Assembly: GCA_022563255.1 (NCBI GenBank) | Contig: JADFNS010000003.1 | Span: 62,001 to 126,000 of the forward strand | Origin: Pseudomonadota bacterium | Lineage (GTDB): Bacteria > Pseudomonadota > Gammaproteobacteria > Steroidobacterales > Woeseiaceae | DNA: 64,000 nucleotides | Direction of reading: 5' to 3' | Shown here: positions 16,312 to 33,055 of the stretch, one piece after another | Numbering within the stretch: the stretch's first letter is position 1 | How the letters are laid out: every line of letters begins with the position of its first letter | The notes under the pieces: model-generated | The model's input: only the letters and a program-made list of their open reading frames with translations | The model's database searches: none | What the model was told of the DNA's origin: nothing | Made by a program: the position numbers and the translations under genes

Positions 16312-18117
16312 TCACGCACGCTGCGCTGGTTTCTTGATTTTCATTATTCGGATCCGATCTGCGAGTGTTGTCGGTCTGACCCCCAGCAGTTCGGCGGCGC
16401 CGCCAACCCCCGACACTTTCCAGTTCGCCTGTTGCATTGCTTTGACGATATTGTTCCTCTGAAATTCACGCACTTCCTTTTCGGTGAGCACTGCAGCGGA
16501 ATCTGCGGGCGCGGCAGACGCTTCATCGGCTACGATCTTGAGACCGCGCATCGACAAATCGAGCCGCAGAACCTTTCCCGGAGAAAGAATGACGGCACGT
16601 TCGATAACGTTTTTCAGTTCGCGCACATTGCCAGGCCAATCGTAAGCCCGCATGTCCGCCGCCTGAGCTCTCGTCAGCGTTAACGCGTCGCGACCAAAAT
16701 CCTCGCATGTCTGTACCAAAAAATGTTGTGCAAGCTGCACAATATCCTCCTTGCGTTCACGTAATGGCGGAACATCGATGGGAAAAACACTGATGCGGTA
16801 GAAAAGGTCCTCACGAAAATTGCCATCGACGATCAGCTTCTCCAGATCGCGATTGGTTGCCGCGATTACGCGCACGTCCACGGAACGGGTCACGTCGTCA
16901 CCGACCCGTTCGAACTCGCTTTCTTGCAAGACCCGCAACAACTTACCTTGCAGTTCCATCGGAATTTCGCTGATTTCGTCCAGGAATATTGTGCCGCCGT
17001 CCGCAAGTTGAAATCGGCCGATGCGGTCCCGGTACGCGCCAGTGTATGCCCCTTTGACGTGACCGAAGAACTCGCTCTCGAATAATTCCTTCGGTATCGA
17101 CGCGCAATTGACCTTGACCAGCGGTCCGTCCGCGCGCGCGCTCTGCACGTGAATCGCGTGCGCCACGAGCTCCTTGCCTACGCCGGATTCACCCTGAATC
17201 AGTACGTTCGCCGGTGTTTGCGCGACCGCCTCAATCCTCTTGAGCATACGGCGCAGCGCCGGGCTCGTACCCACGATGCGCCCGAAATTCATTGCGACGT
17301 TCACTTCTTCGCGCAGGTAGTCGCGCTCCCGTTCCAGCTCTTCGCGAAGACGCGCGTTTTCGGCAAGGGTGCGCCGCAATTCTCGCTCGGCCCGACGCCG
17401 CTGAGTGACGTCTTTCGACGCGACCAGCATCCGATCAACATTGCCTTCGTCATCGCTGTGCGAGACAGCAGACATGACGAGATCCAGCACGGTGCCATCC
17501 TTTGCCAGCATCTGACGTTCCAGATTACTGAATTCGCCTTCACTGATGAGATCGTTCAGACGACCATCAGCATAAATTTTTCGATCGCGCGCGCTGAAGA
17601 AGTCGGTAATCGGTCTGCCAACGACCTCCTCCCGGGTAAATCCGAGCTTGCTAAGCCAATGATCGGTAACCGTAACGATCAGGCCCTTGCCATCGACCGT
17701 ATGCAGCATTGCGGGCGTCGCCCGGTACAAGGTTCGATACTTGAAATTCGCGCGTGCCTGGTCGGAAATTTCCGAATACATTGCGACCGTTCGCAGAAAC
17801 TGTCCCTCGCGATCGTATTCGACGAAAGCGTTGGTCATGCAATCAACCACTTCTCCCGCTTTCGTGATGAAGCTGACCGGTTTGTTTTCGAGCTTCCCGG
17901 TGCGCCTCAACGCCGGGCGCAGCTCGTCGCGAACTCGCTTTGCGCTTTCCGGCGTCGCGAATTCCTCCGGGCTGTGGCCAACCATGTCATCGCGATCGTA
18001 TCCCAGGCGCTTGAGCATTGCGTCGTTGACGTCGAGATACACACCGTCCTCGGCGATGGAAGTCGCCATGACCGGAGCTTTACGAAACAGCCATTGATAA
18101 TCGTCTTGCGTAATCAT
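16312..18117 (-). CDS. PAS-PAS sigma-54-dependent transcriptional activator (AAA+, Fis-type HTH)
   Basis: The 601-aa regulator has two PAS sensor domains (about residues 5-120 and 128-242), a coiled coil ([19 protein letters not shown]), a sigma-54 interaction AAA+ domain, and a C-terminal helix-turn-helix ([20 protein letters not shown]). Walker A is GESGVGKE (309-316), Walker B GTIFLDEI (375-382), and the sigma-54 contact loop reads GAYTGA instead of GAFTGA, a known conservative variant. No receiver domain or phosphorylatable Asp is present, so the PAS domains probably sense a ligand, redox state or partner. Upstream lie four tandem palindromes and a divergent sigma-54 promoter, its probable target. 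Confidence 0.92.
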
Positions 18118-18128
18118 GCAGACAGTAT

Positions 18129-18200
18129 ATACGAAATTTCATTTTTTACGATATTTCGTATATAACCTTACGATTTTCCGTAATTTACGGAATTTCGTAA
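18129..18200. promoter_or_regulatory. Four tandem copies of a 16-bp palindromic operator (consensus TTACGnnnTTTCGTAA)
   Basis: Copies are read at 18129 (ATACGAAATTTCATTT), 18147 (TTACGATATTTCGTAT), 18168 (TTACGATTTTCCGTAA) and 18185 (TTACGGAATTTCGTAA). Spacings are 18, 21 and 17 bases. Two larger perfect inverted repeats are superimposed: TATATACGAAAT/ATTTCGTATATA (18126-18137 with 18153-18164) and TTCCGTAA-T-TTACGGAA (18176-18192). Single TTACG half-sites recur at 18210 and 18238. Relative to the start predicted from the sigma-54 promoter the sites lie at roughly -88 to -144, where enhancer sites for sigma-54 activators normally sit. Binding by the adjacent activator is inferred. Confidence 0.8.
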
Positions 18201-18245: not shown

Positions 18246-18264
18246 TTGGCACGGCTTGTGCAAT
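18246..18264 (+). promoter_or_regulatory. Sigma-54 (-24/-12) promoter
   Basis: The sequence TTGGCACGGCTTGTGCAAT matches the sigma-54 consensus TGGCACG-N4-TTGCA, with the invariant GG (18248-18249) and GC (18260-18261) exactly ten bases apart; only the first T of the -12 element is changed to G. Transcription would start near 18273 and run into the 45-codon ORF. It points away from the activator gene and follows the palindromic array. Confidence 0.8.
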
Positions 18265-18339
18265 AGGAAACATTGAAAGCAAACTAATTTGCAGCGCGAC
18301 CACCACCGAACGCGTTGCCAGAGACACAGGACAAAATCC

Positions 18340-18477
18340 ATGAAAAGCAATTACATCGAAAACGGCCTCGCCCTCCTGGGCGCATTGGTCATTCTTATCG
18401 GCGTTTCCGCTGCGGCGACCACCGCGCTTGCCAGTGACGCGAGCACCGTTGAAATTTACAGCTCTGCCCAAAAGTAA
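18340..18477 (+). CDS. 45-residue membrane or secreted peptide under sigma-54 control
   Basis: The ATG at 18340 has AGGA eight bases upstream and lies about 67 bases after the predicted sigma-54 start site; the track's longer frame (18289) would begin close to the promoter. The product starts MKSNYIENG, has a hydrophobic stretch at residues 9-30 and a possible signal-peptidase site A-L-A before SDAS at residue 31, which would release a 14-residue peptide ending in SSAQK. Alternatively the stretch is a membrane anchor. I do not recognise a family. Placement opposite a PAS-type activator suggests it is the main regulated product, or an open reading frame preceding a regulatory RNA. Confidence 0.6.
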   Translation: MKSNYIENGLALLGALVILIGVSAAATTALASDASTVEIYSSAQK

Positions 18478-18493
18478 GACAGTAAGTACCCCG

Positions 18494-18693
18494 GCGGCAT
18501 GCCGCTCAGACTGCTCTCCCCCCTGACAGTCTGGCTGGCGGCCCCGGGAATTGCCGGATCGGAATCCGGTGAAAAACGGACCAGGAAGGTCCGGCGGCCC
18601 CCCTGCCGTTATCTTTAAGGCGCCGGAGATCGCTCCATGTCGGAACGGCCCGCTGATTCGATTTCTGAATTCAGTTCTTCGGCGCTTTTTTTT
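18494..18693 (+). ncRNA. Hairpin-rich 3' region after the small ORF, possible regulatory RNA with GGA loops
   Basis: Within 200 bases are several self-complementary elements: the palindrome GCGGCATGCCGC (18494-18505), the stem CAGACTG/CAGTCTG (18507-18513 with 18527-18533), CCGGAT-CGGA-ATCCGG (18554-18569), CGGACC-AGGAA-GGTCCG (18577-18593), and a terminator stem. Two hairpins expose GGA in their loops and GGA occurs about seven times in all, which is the recognition element of CsrA/RsmA. It may be a CsrA-titrating RNA or a structured 3' UTR processed from the sigma-54 transcript. Both roles are inference; only the repeats and the T-run are seen. Confidence 0.4.
18620..18693 (+). terminator. 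Rho-independent terminator with long loop, ending the sigma-54 transcript
   Basis: GCGCCG (18620-18625) pairs with CGGCGC (18680-18685), extended by a G-U and two A-T pairs, and is followed at once by eight T (18686-18693). The intervening ~54 bases include a GGAG/CTCC mini-hairpin and the palindrome CTGAATTCAG. The loop is long for a terminator, so the stem may only form after the inner hairpins fold. Confidence 0.6.
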
Positions 18694-18701
18694 CGCCCGG
18701 A

Positions 18702-31480: not shown

Positions 31481-31618
31481 CCGTCCAATCTAGCGCAATG
31501 CCAACAAAAGGTCACAGATCAGCCACAAAGCAGGCAAATAATTTGATTTAACAATAAGTTACAAATCTCTGGATTACGTTGCGCGGGTCCGCGCGCTGTG
31601 CAACGATGGCAATTCGAT

Positions 31619-31699
31619 TGAAAAAGGCACAGCTGTTGAAAGGCAGCGTCGCAAAACCACCGGTCTACGGGTACTTGCACCTATGACAGCGGAGTCACC
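31619..31699 (+). promoter_or_regulatory. Class-I cyclic di-GMP riboswitch (GEMM)
   Basis: The leader matches the GEMM layout in order: GGCACA, a short stem GCTGT/GGCAGC capped by a GAAA tetraloop (31632-31647), the conserved TCGCAAAACC (31649-31658), ACCGGTCTA (31659-31667), and the closing TGACAGCGGAGTCACC (31684-31699). In the family these correspond to the GAAA-capped arm, the CGCAAA-GCC strand that forms the ligand pocket, and the GACAGCGGGGTTACC 3' strand. The gene's ribosome site GGAG (31691-31694) lies inside the last element, eight bases from the ATG, so control of translation initiation is likely. Some positions differ from consensus (ACC for GCC). Confidence 0.75.
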
Positions 31700-31702
31700 A
31701 AT

Positions 31703-33055
31703 ATGAAGCCACAAGGATTTCGTGATACGGGCAGATTTGTTCACCGTCCGGCACGTCCTGGTATCTGCACACCGACAAATCTCGCACACCTTACGCGTTG
31801 CCTCAGCCACGACGCGAACATCGCTTTACCGGTACGCCCCCGGGGCGCCGGAACCGCAGTAACAGACTGTAGCGTGAGCACGTCGGGAACGGTCATCGAT
31901 ATGACCCGCTTCGATCGGATCATCCACATTGACACGCACGAACAAACCGTAACCGCGGAAGCCGGTGTGCGATTGGGCGCACTGGTTGCCGCACTGGCGG
32001 CGAAAGATCTGGAACTTGTCGGCAGCTTTGATCAAACCGAGCGAACGCTCGGCGGCGCGCTCGCCGCGCCGTGTATGGGGCCTGGAATCGGCGACCATAC
32101 CTCATTTCTCTCCGCCCAGGTCATCGGCATGAAATTGGTGACTGCCGGCGGGAAAGTCATGAGAGTCTCGGAAACGCAAAAGCATCTATTGGGCGCAATG
32201 CGCCTGAGCTATGGAATGCTGGGCGTTATTTACGAGGTGACATTACGAGTACGGTCGATATCGACATTTTCTGCCAATCACCGCAGCATGAACATTGAGA
32301 CCTTTGCGCAGGTCTGCGACCGACTGGCAAGCGGCAATGTTGGGCTCAAGTTTTACCTCCTGCCTTATCGAGATCAGGTGTACCTGGATTTGCGTCATTA
32401 CGAAAATTCGCAGCACAGTACGTTTCCGATTCCCTGGAGGATAAAGAATTGGGGCGAGAGCACAGTGCTCCCCAATGTATTCAAATCACTAAATCGTGTA
32501 TTGCCCATACCGTCTGTTCGCTATCGTTTGATCGATTCGATATCGGCAGCAACGCATGGACTTGTGAATTCGAGACTCGTAAGAAATGGCAATAACGTCA
32601 CGGCAAGCGGGCAGCGTCGCCGCAGAAAATCACGCGGACTTCTATATTCGACCTGGTGTTTTCCGGCCTCTGACTTTTCGTTGGTAGTAAAAGCGTACGC
32701 TAATTTCTGCCAGGAAACCTTTCTGCGCACGACTTACCGTTGTGATATGCCCGCGGTCGGTCACCGCATTGCACGGGATTGCTCTGCATTGCTGTCGCCC
32801 TCATTTGACGAGCCGCTGATTGCCCTGCAATCCGTTTCGACACAGCGTCGTGGATGGGATGGTTTTGTTCTCGACCTTTCCGAATTCGCCGAAAACTGGG
32901 GCGGCATTCCGTTGTTCAATCAGACGCTGGCCACGCGTGCAGACTATGTGTCCCAAACCTATGCCGGCAGGATGGAGCTCTTTCGCAAGATTCGCCGCCA
33001 ACTGGACCCCAGGAAGCGCTTGCTGAACCCGTTTCTCGCCCGCCACTTCGAGTAA
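31703..33055 (+). CDS. FAD-dependent oxidoreductase, aldonolactone-oxidase (ALO) type, under c-di-GMP riboswitch
   Basis: The N-terminal FAD-binding domain (VAO/PCMH type, residues about 20-185) shows LPVRPRGAGTAVTDC, VIDMTRFDRIIHID, VTAEAGVRLGALVA and QTERTLGGALAAPCMGPG. The C-terminal domain ends ENWGGIPLFNQT...RRQLDPRKRLLNP, the typical end of the D-arabinono-/L-gulono-lactone oxidase family, where an H-W-G-K would be expected; here it reads NWGG. No signal peptide is seen. It is monocistronic and directly controlled by the riboswitch. The substrate is probably a sugar-derived lactone or alditol, unproven. Confidence 0.8.
   Translation: MKPQGFRDTGRFVHRPARPGICTPTNLAHLTRCLSHDANIALPVRPRGAGTAVTDCSVSTSGTVIDMTRFDRIIHIDTHEQTVTAEAGVRLGALVAALAAKDLELVGSFDQTERTLGGALAAPCMGPGIGDHTSFLSAQVIGMKLVTAGGKVMRVSETQKHLLGAMRLSYGMLGVIYEVTLRVRSISTFSANHRSMNIETFAQVCDRLASGNVGLKFYLLPYRDQVYLDLRHYENSQHSTFPIPWRIKNWGESTVLPNVFKSLNRVLPIPSVRYRLIDSISAATHGLVNSRLVRNGNNVTASGQRRRRKSRGLLYSTWCFPASDFSLVVKAYANFCQETFLRTTYRCDMPAVGHRIARDCSALLSPSFDEPLIALQSVSTQRRGWDGFVLDLSEFAENWGGIPLFNQTLATRADYVSQTYAGRMELFRKIRRQLDPRKRLLNPFLARHFE

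Follow-up and report, generated by a model that had tools for sequence, protein, structure and literature searches.

The small open reading frame (ORF) at 18340-18477 of the window (the whole 64,000-nucleotide stretch of Woeseiaceae DNA analysed here) belongs to a conserved locus that we read, with somewhat better than even confidence, as a dedicated sigma54 response module of the Woeseiaceae; its dual transcript would yield a small membrane or periplasmic protein and an sRNA acting in trans via C-rich loops. The order of elements is fixed across the family: divergent activator, three UAS, sigma54 promoter, small Sec-targeted ORF, four-hairpin RNA and terminator. ORF and conserved RNA structure lie in one predicted transcription unit, whose shared promoter and terminator are read from DNA alone. 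What the original prediction said of a coding ORF, a Sec-type signal, a sigma54 promoter, a PAS activator and an RNA holds; a released peptide as the main product and a leader in the attenuation sense are not supported. The relatives named below are Woeseiaceae MAGs, in which the module was found with a DNA pattern derived from the RNA. The features of the locus in the window are as follows.

16312-18117, minus strand: divergent activator of 601 aa, PAS-PAS-sigma54 AAA+ domain-Fis-type HTH, without a receiver domain
18146-18161, unstranded: UAS 1, palindrome TTACGATATTTCGTAT, one mismatch to TACGRWATTYCGTAA, at -98 from the promoter
18168-18183, unstranded: UAS 2, TTACGATTTTCCGTAA, at -76 from the promoter
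18185-18200, unstranded: UAS 3, TTACGGAATTTCGTAA, at -59 from the promoter
18246-18263, plus strand: sigma54 promoter TTGGCACGGCTTGTGCAA, GG-N10-GC, with the -24 GG at 18248-18249 and the -12 GC at 18260-18261
18327-18332, plus strand: Shine-Dalgarno region (AGGA) just 5' of the ATG; AGGA or GGA is present there in most homologues
18340-18477, plus strand: small protein ORF, ATG to TAA, 45 aa, 45 codons, reading MKSNYIENGLALLGALVILIGVSAAATTALASDASTVEIYSSAQK
18340-18432, plus strand: signal/transmembrane segment, residues 1-31, with possible cleavage after ALA31
18433-18474, plus strand: predicted mature tail of 14 residues, SDASTVEIYSSAQK
18478-18694, plus strand: structured RNA module, 3' part of the predicted transcript
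18507-18533, plus strand: hairpin H1, a covarying helix with loop CUCUCCCCCCUGA (18514-18526)
18554-18569, plus strand: hairpin H2, loop CGGA (GGA in the region 18560-18563)
18577-18593, plus strand: hairpin H3, loop AGGAA (18583-18587)
18595-18608, plus strand: hairpin H4, loop CCCCCU, almost invariant
18617-18694, plus strand: Rho-independent terminator, GGCGCCGGAG...CUUCGGCGCUUUUUUUU, which folds and has inserted sub-hairpins

The sigma54 control region

The dedicated sigma54 promoter proposed originally is supported: the GG-N10-GC element at 18246-18263 is accompanied by UAS and an adjacent enhancer-binding activator and is conserved in the loci examined, and transcription of the small gene is expected to start near 18273. 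When these loci are put on one strand, the promoter lies ∼60-110 nt 5' of the start codon, which is usually preceded by an AGGA-type Shine-Dalgarno sequence. The activator has Pfam matches to Sigma54_activat (4.7e-71), PAS_9, PAS_4 and AAA_lid_14, with HTH_8 slightly under the cut-off. It adjoins divergently in 67 of 68 loci, the contig of the remaining locus being cut at the promoter; the distance from activator start to promoter is ∼111 bp in most loci and 128 in the window.

Three palindromes of the form ACGNNNNNNCGT are found at -98, -76 and -59 in nearly all loci. Among five genomes searched, the UAS consensus clusters at the module locus only, and the other matches, single and with one mismatch, are few and chance-like; the activator thus appears to be dedicated to this promoter. 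As its own start adjoins UAS 1, it is probably autoregulated as well. This anatomy suggests that the PAS-domain activator would bind the three palindromes and turn on a single sigma54 promoter. The strict, divergent pairing of activator and ORF would also suit a small protein acting as a membrane feedback modulator of its own PAS activator, but the recognised activator domains are all of cytoplasmic types, simple regulation accounts for the pairing equally well and the RNA would be left unexplained; we regard such a role as improbable.

The small protein and its changes in length

The ORF has been described correctly as having one hydrophobic stretch, an ALA site and 14 residues beyond it. The top 19-residue Kyte-Doolittle mean is 2.25, starting at residue 9; ALA occupies residues 29-31, and cleavage there would leave exactly 14 residues. 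Homologous ORFs lie at the same position behind the same promoter in same-genus genomes (E as low as 2.5e-14), and a search of 60 relatives detects the peptide in most genomes of the genus. The core common to the homologues is xxENxLALxGALxVLxGVSxAAxxALA.

Codon-level conservation in relatives bears out the proposed small peptide gene and is far beyond chance. Identity of the ORF core at codon positions 1, 2 and 3 is 0.60, 0.76 and 0.39, pN/pS is 0.27 (12 disjoint close pairs; binomial p ∼4e-19), and start codon and Shine-Dalgarno sequence are conserved. Within the clade of 45-aa forms, pN/pS is 0.34 for the core and 0.46 for the 14-residue tail (95% bootstrap 0.28-0.73). The codon-position identities and low pN/pS indicate selection on the encoded protein, and the short form does not resemble a decaying remnant. 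A pseudogene reading of the short ORF was considered and rejected on account of the purifying selection on the tail. Neither the short nor the long form has a Pfam or NCBIfam match above cut-off.

Judged by eye, the sequences have the features of a Sec signal peptide: an n-region, a hydrophobic core and a small-x-small c-region. Residues 29-31 read ALA, AFA or ASA in 32 of 48 genus-clade loci, and several short forms are without such a site. Other genera of Woeseiaceae encode at the same place a protein of 84-99 aa in which an ordinary Sec-type signal peptide is followed by a middle part that varies and an end, LDLDIRLIGPTSVKIA, that is mostly conserved. AlphaFold modelling of a 94-aa long form gave low confidence (pLDDT 57.6) and was uninformative.

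In a tree built from the adjacent activator, every member from another genus has the long form, the short/long label changes at least seven times on well supported branches within the genus, and the window's 45-aa form is part of one clade of 14 (support 100/98). Behind the same promoter, the mature part ranges from ∼0-6 residues (L025, L029 and the L054 group) up to ∼70; L063, like these, ends only a few residues past the hydrophobic segment. The mature part has thus been cut back or almost lost several times, with the hydrophobic segment and the RNA retained, and the 14-residue tail, which is confined to one clade, is not the essence of the family. As a guess, the tail may be what is left of the former C-terminal motif.

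Conservation within the protein has shifted too. Mean identity in other genera is 0.30 for the signal peptide and 0.54 for the C terminus, whereas among long forms of the window's genus it is 0.59 and 0.44, respectively; the hydrophobic segment is now the better-conserved part in the genus, from which we infer a separate function for it there. With selection shifted to this segment, the product is probably a small membrane protein and not a released 14-residue signal, which appears to fit the shift poorly and is not favoured.

A secreted peptide signal would involve cleavage at ALA, after which the 14-residue peptide (in relatives, a longer mature protein) would be exported and sensed. The small-x-small c-region of most homologues, the classical signal peptides of other genera and the purifying selection on the tail agree with it, but a mature length that varies from about zero to 70 residues under one promoter, and a tail restricted to one clade, argue against a released peptide as the main product, and we see no dedicated exporter, protease or receptor adjoining the ORF; we therefore hold a secreted signal to be quite unlikely. 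Our preferred reading is that the transcript would first give a small Sec-targeted protein made up of a signal/transmembrane helix and, in some forms, a short periplasmic tail; this protein most likely works at the inner membrane or within the periplasm as part of the same response.

The structured RNA and its surroundings

The transcript would then run on as a structured RNA closed by the terminator, so that both products may come from one molecule. In the RNA alignment 87.5% of cells pair, the structure having been derived in part from the fold of that alignment itself. H1 has 90.6% of cells paired, with double changes at five of seven pairs; H3 has 96.8%, with double changes at three pairs; H4 has 96.7%; H2 is the weakest helix at 67%, probably through misalignment. 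Double changes occur in 69 cells of the alignment; shuffles give 27.5, none of 500 reaching the observed number, and slid controls are all much lower. The terminator is present wherever the locus contig extends to it. Within the terminator hairpin, the sequence of an insert (18629-18680, consensus GACCGCTCCGTGTCGGATCGGCCCGCTG...TTCAG) is strongly conserved in relatives; several same-genus RNAs are missing it and end in a plain short terminator.

Searches of Rfam gave no match to the RNA at gathering level, and the 6C covariance model gave none at gathering level or at E up to 5. A match to Rfam P11 scored 19.3 bits, the cut-off being 70, and was regarded as chance. Neither ORF nor RNA is covered by any Pfam, NCBIfam or Rfam family, which is the sense in which the "previously unannotated" of the original note was assessed.

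C-rich loops are nearly universal: an approximate script finds the CCCC loop at H4 in 46 of 46 genus RNAs and in 14 of the 15 other-genus RNAs scored. The RNA is most likely a trans-acting sRNA whose C-rich loops (CUCUCCCCC in H1, CCCCC in H4) would pair with G-rich ribosome-binding sites and probably mask them, as reported for mycobacterial B11. A scan of the 64-kb window for GGGGAGA-N-ATG (sites complementary to the H1 loop) returned 0 matches, and no complementary targets were found there.

The GGA loops of H2 and H3 resemble CsrA sites and are largely limited to the window's genus: by the same approximate script, they occur in 37 (H2) and 35 (H3) of 46 genus RNAs versus 2 of 15 other-genus RNAs at either hairpin. 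CsrA and Hfq are encoded in seven of seven genomes tested, and the loops in this genus may additionally bind CsrA. That the RNA is mainly a CsrA sponge of CsrB/RsmY type, with the ORF incidental, would draw on the two GGA-loop hairpins of most genus RNAs and on the presence of CsrA in the genomes tested, but 13 of 15 other-genus RNAs are without GGA loops and still keep the C-rich ones, each RNA has just two sites, and the ORF is under selection; this makes a sponge very improbable.

The RNA could instead stabilise the mRNA. An ordinary message for a small secreted protein, with 3' hairpins conserved for stability or localisation only, would be in line with the other-genus ORF, whose product is a secreted protein of 84-99 aa with a conserved C terminus. 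However, the RNA retains unpaired C-rich loops, and it was kept where the mature protein was repeatedly lost, which leaves this alternative unlikely. A further reading, to which we give little credence, is a membrane-localised riboregulator: translation of the signal/transmembrane segment would bring the attached RNA to the membrane, the ORF serving mainly as an address tag. It would explain why the mature protein was lost repeatedly while hydrophobic segment, promoter and RNA persist.

The suggestion that the ORF is a leader for the downstream RNA fails in the attenuation sense. Both in the window and in those relatives that were examined, the gene next 3' of the RNA is convergent and no same-strand gene follows the terminator; with its own terminator and a convergent neighbour, the RNA has nothing left to attenuate. 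In L106 and L114, which belong to other genera, three genes come after the RNA: a convergent one for a small membrane protein carrying a PGP motif, then a hypothetical one and one that is dienelactone-hydrolase-like. The window has the dienelactone-hydrolase-like gene directly after the RNA and no PGP-motif gene at this place. The gene order common to the three points to vertical inheritance. Elsewhere in the window, a c-di-GMP-I riboswitch aptamer (31616-31702, plus strand, 70.7 bits) abuts the ATG at 31703 of a 450-aa ORF resembling FAD-linked oxidase.

Distribution and comparison with known systems

Of 107 Woeseiaceae genomes, 85 contain the RNA according to the covariance model, as do 70 of the 73 within the genus, at one copy per genome except for matches split over contig ends. 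All 36 RNA pattern matches with enough upstream sequence have the small ORF and the promoter. An order-wide search with the covariance model gave one genome outside the Woeseiaceae (G255), and a search of 369 class genomes with the RNA model and a long-form peptide profile gave nothing outside the window's genus. The copy in G255 (L121, contig C115) is the only one outside the family. Its activator falls within the window's genus on the tree, which makes horizontal transfer or mis-binning likely.

Several sRNAs are sigma54-dependent and controlled by NtrC-family activators (CrcZ by CbrB, Qrr by LuxO, GlmY by GlrR), and CbrB, LuxO and GlrR are two-component response regulators. The candidate sRNA described here is likewise placed under a sigma54 promoter and an NtrC-family activator; it differs in the PAS-only input of that activator, in the single UAS cluster seen and in the ORF on the transcript. 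CsrB/RsmY-type sponges share hairpin loops with GGA motifs, but the Woeseiaceae RNA has two, genus-restricted, and its constant feature is the C-rich loops. SgrS/SgrT and VcdRP resemble the module in combining a small protein and a structured RNA in one transcript; their promoter system is another one, RNA action in the Woeseiaceae module is putative, and we know of no sequence relation between them and it. The protein of the dual-function sRNA VcdRP has 29 aa (PMC8672173).

In layout, the module resembles the CcaF1-CcsR1-4 locus of Rhodobacter, where one transcript under an alternative sigma factor carries a small ORF, then sRNAs and finally a Rho-independent terminator; CcaF1 itself, an RNA-binding DUF1127 protein of 71 aa, is controlled by RpoHI/HII (PMC10253847). 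This similarity to CIN1-type loci of alphaproteobacteria extends to the small ORF, RNA, terminator and alternative sigma factor. In contrast, the Woeseiaceae protein is Sec-targeted and without a Pfam match (no DUF1127 domain was found above cut-off with Pfam/NCBIfam), control is by sigma54 and a dedicated activator, and there is one RNA of four hairpins. Mycobacterial B11 (6C) has C-rich loops that were shown to pair with ribosome-binding sites (PMC10470900). Both RNAs have two loops with runs of C, but B11 belongs to another phylum, and the Woeseiaceae RNA is joined to an ORF, has additional GGA hairpins, is placed under a sigma54 promoter and is without an Rfam match.

Woeseiaceae are among the commonest marine-sediment bacteria (PMC7082342), and we came across no report of small regulatory RNAs from this family. 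The locus is a near-universal, single-copy module of the Woeseiaceae that brings together an activator and operator sites of its own, a promoter, a small protein and a probable sRNA, and its protein and RNA both lie outside the families described in Pfam, NCBIfam and Rfam. It also offers a case of a small protein repeatedly losing its mature domain while the signal segment gains constraint. The contig-complete relative G128 provides a defined locus for testing; if the anti-SD action is true, targets enriched for GGGGAGAG at ribosome-binding sites would be expected.
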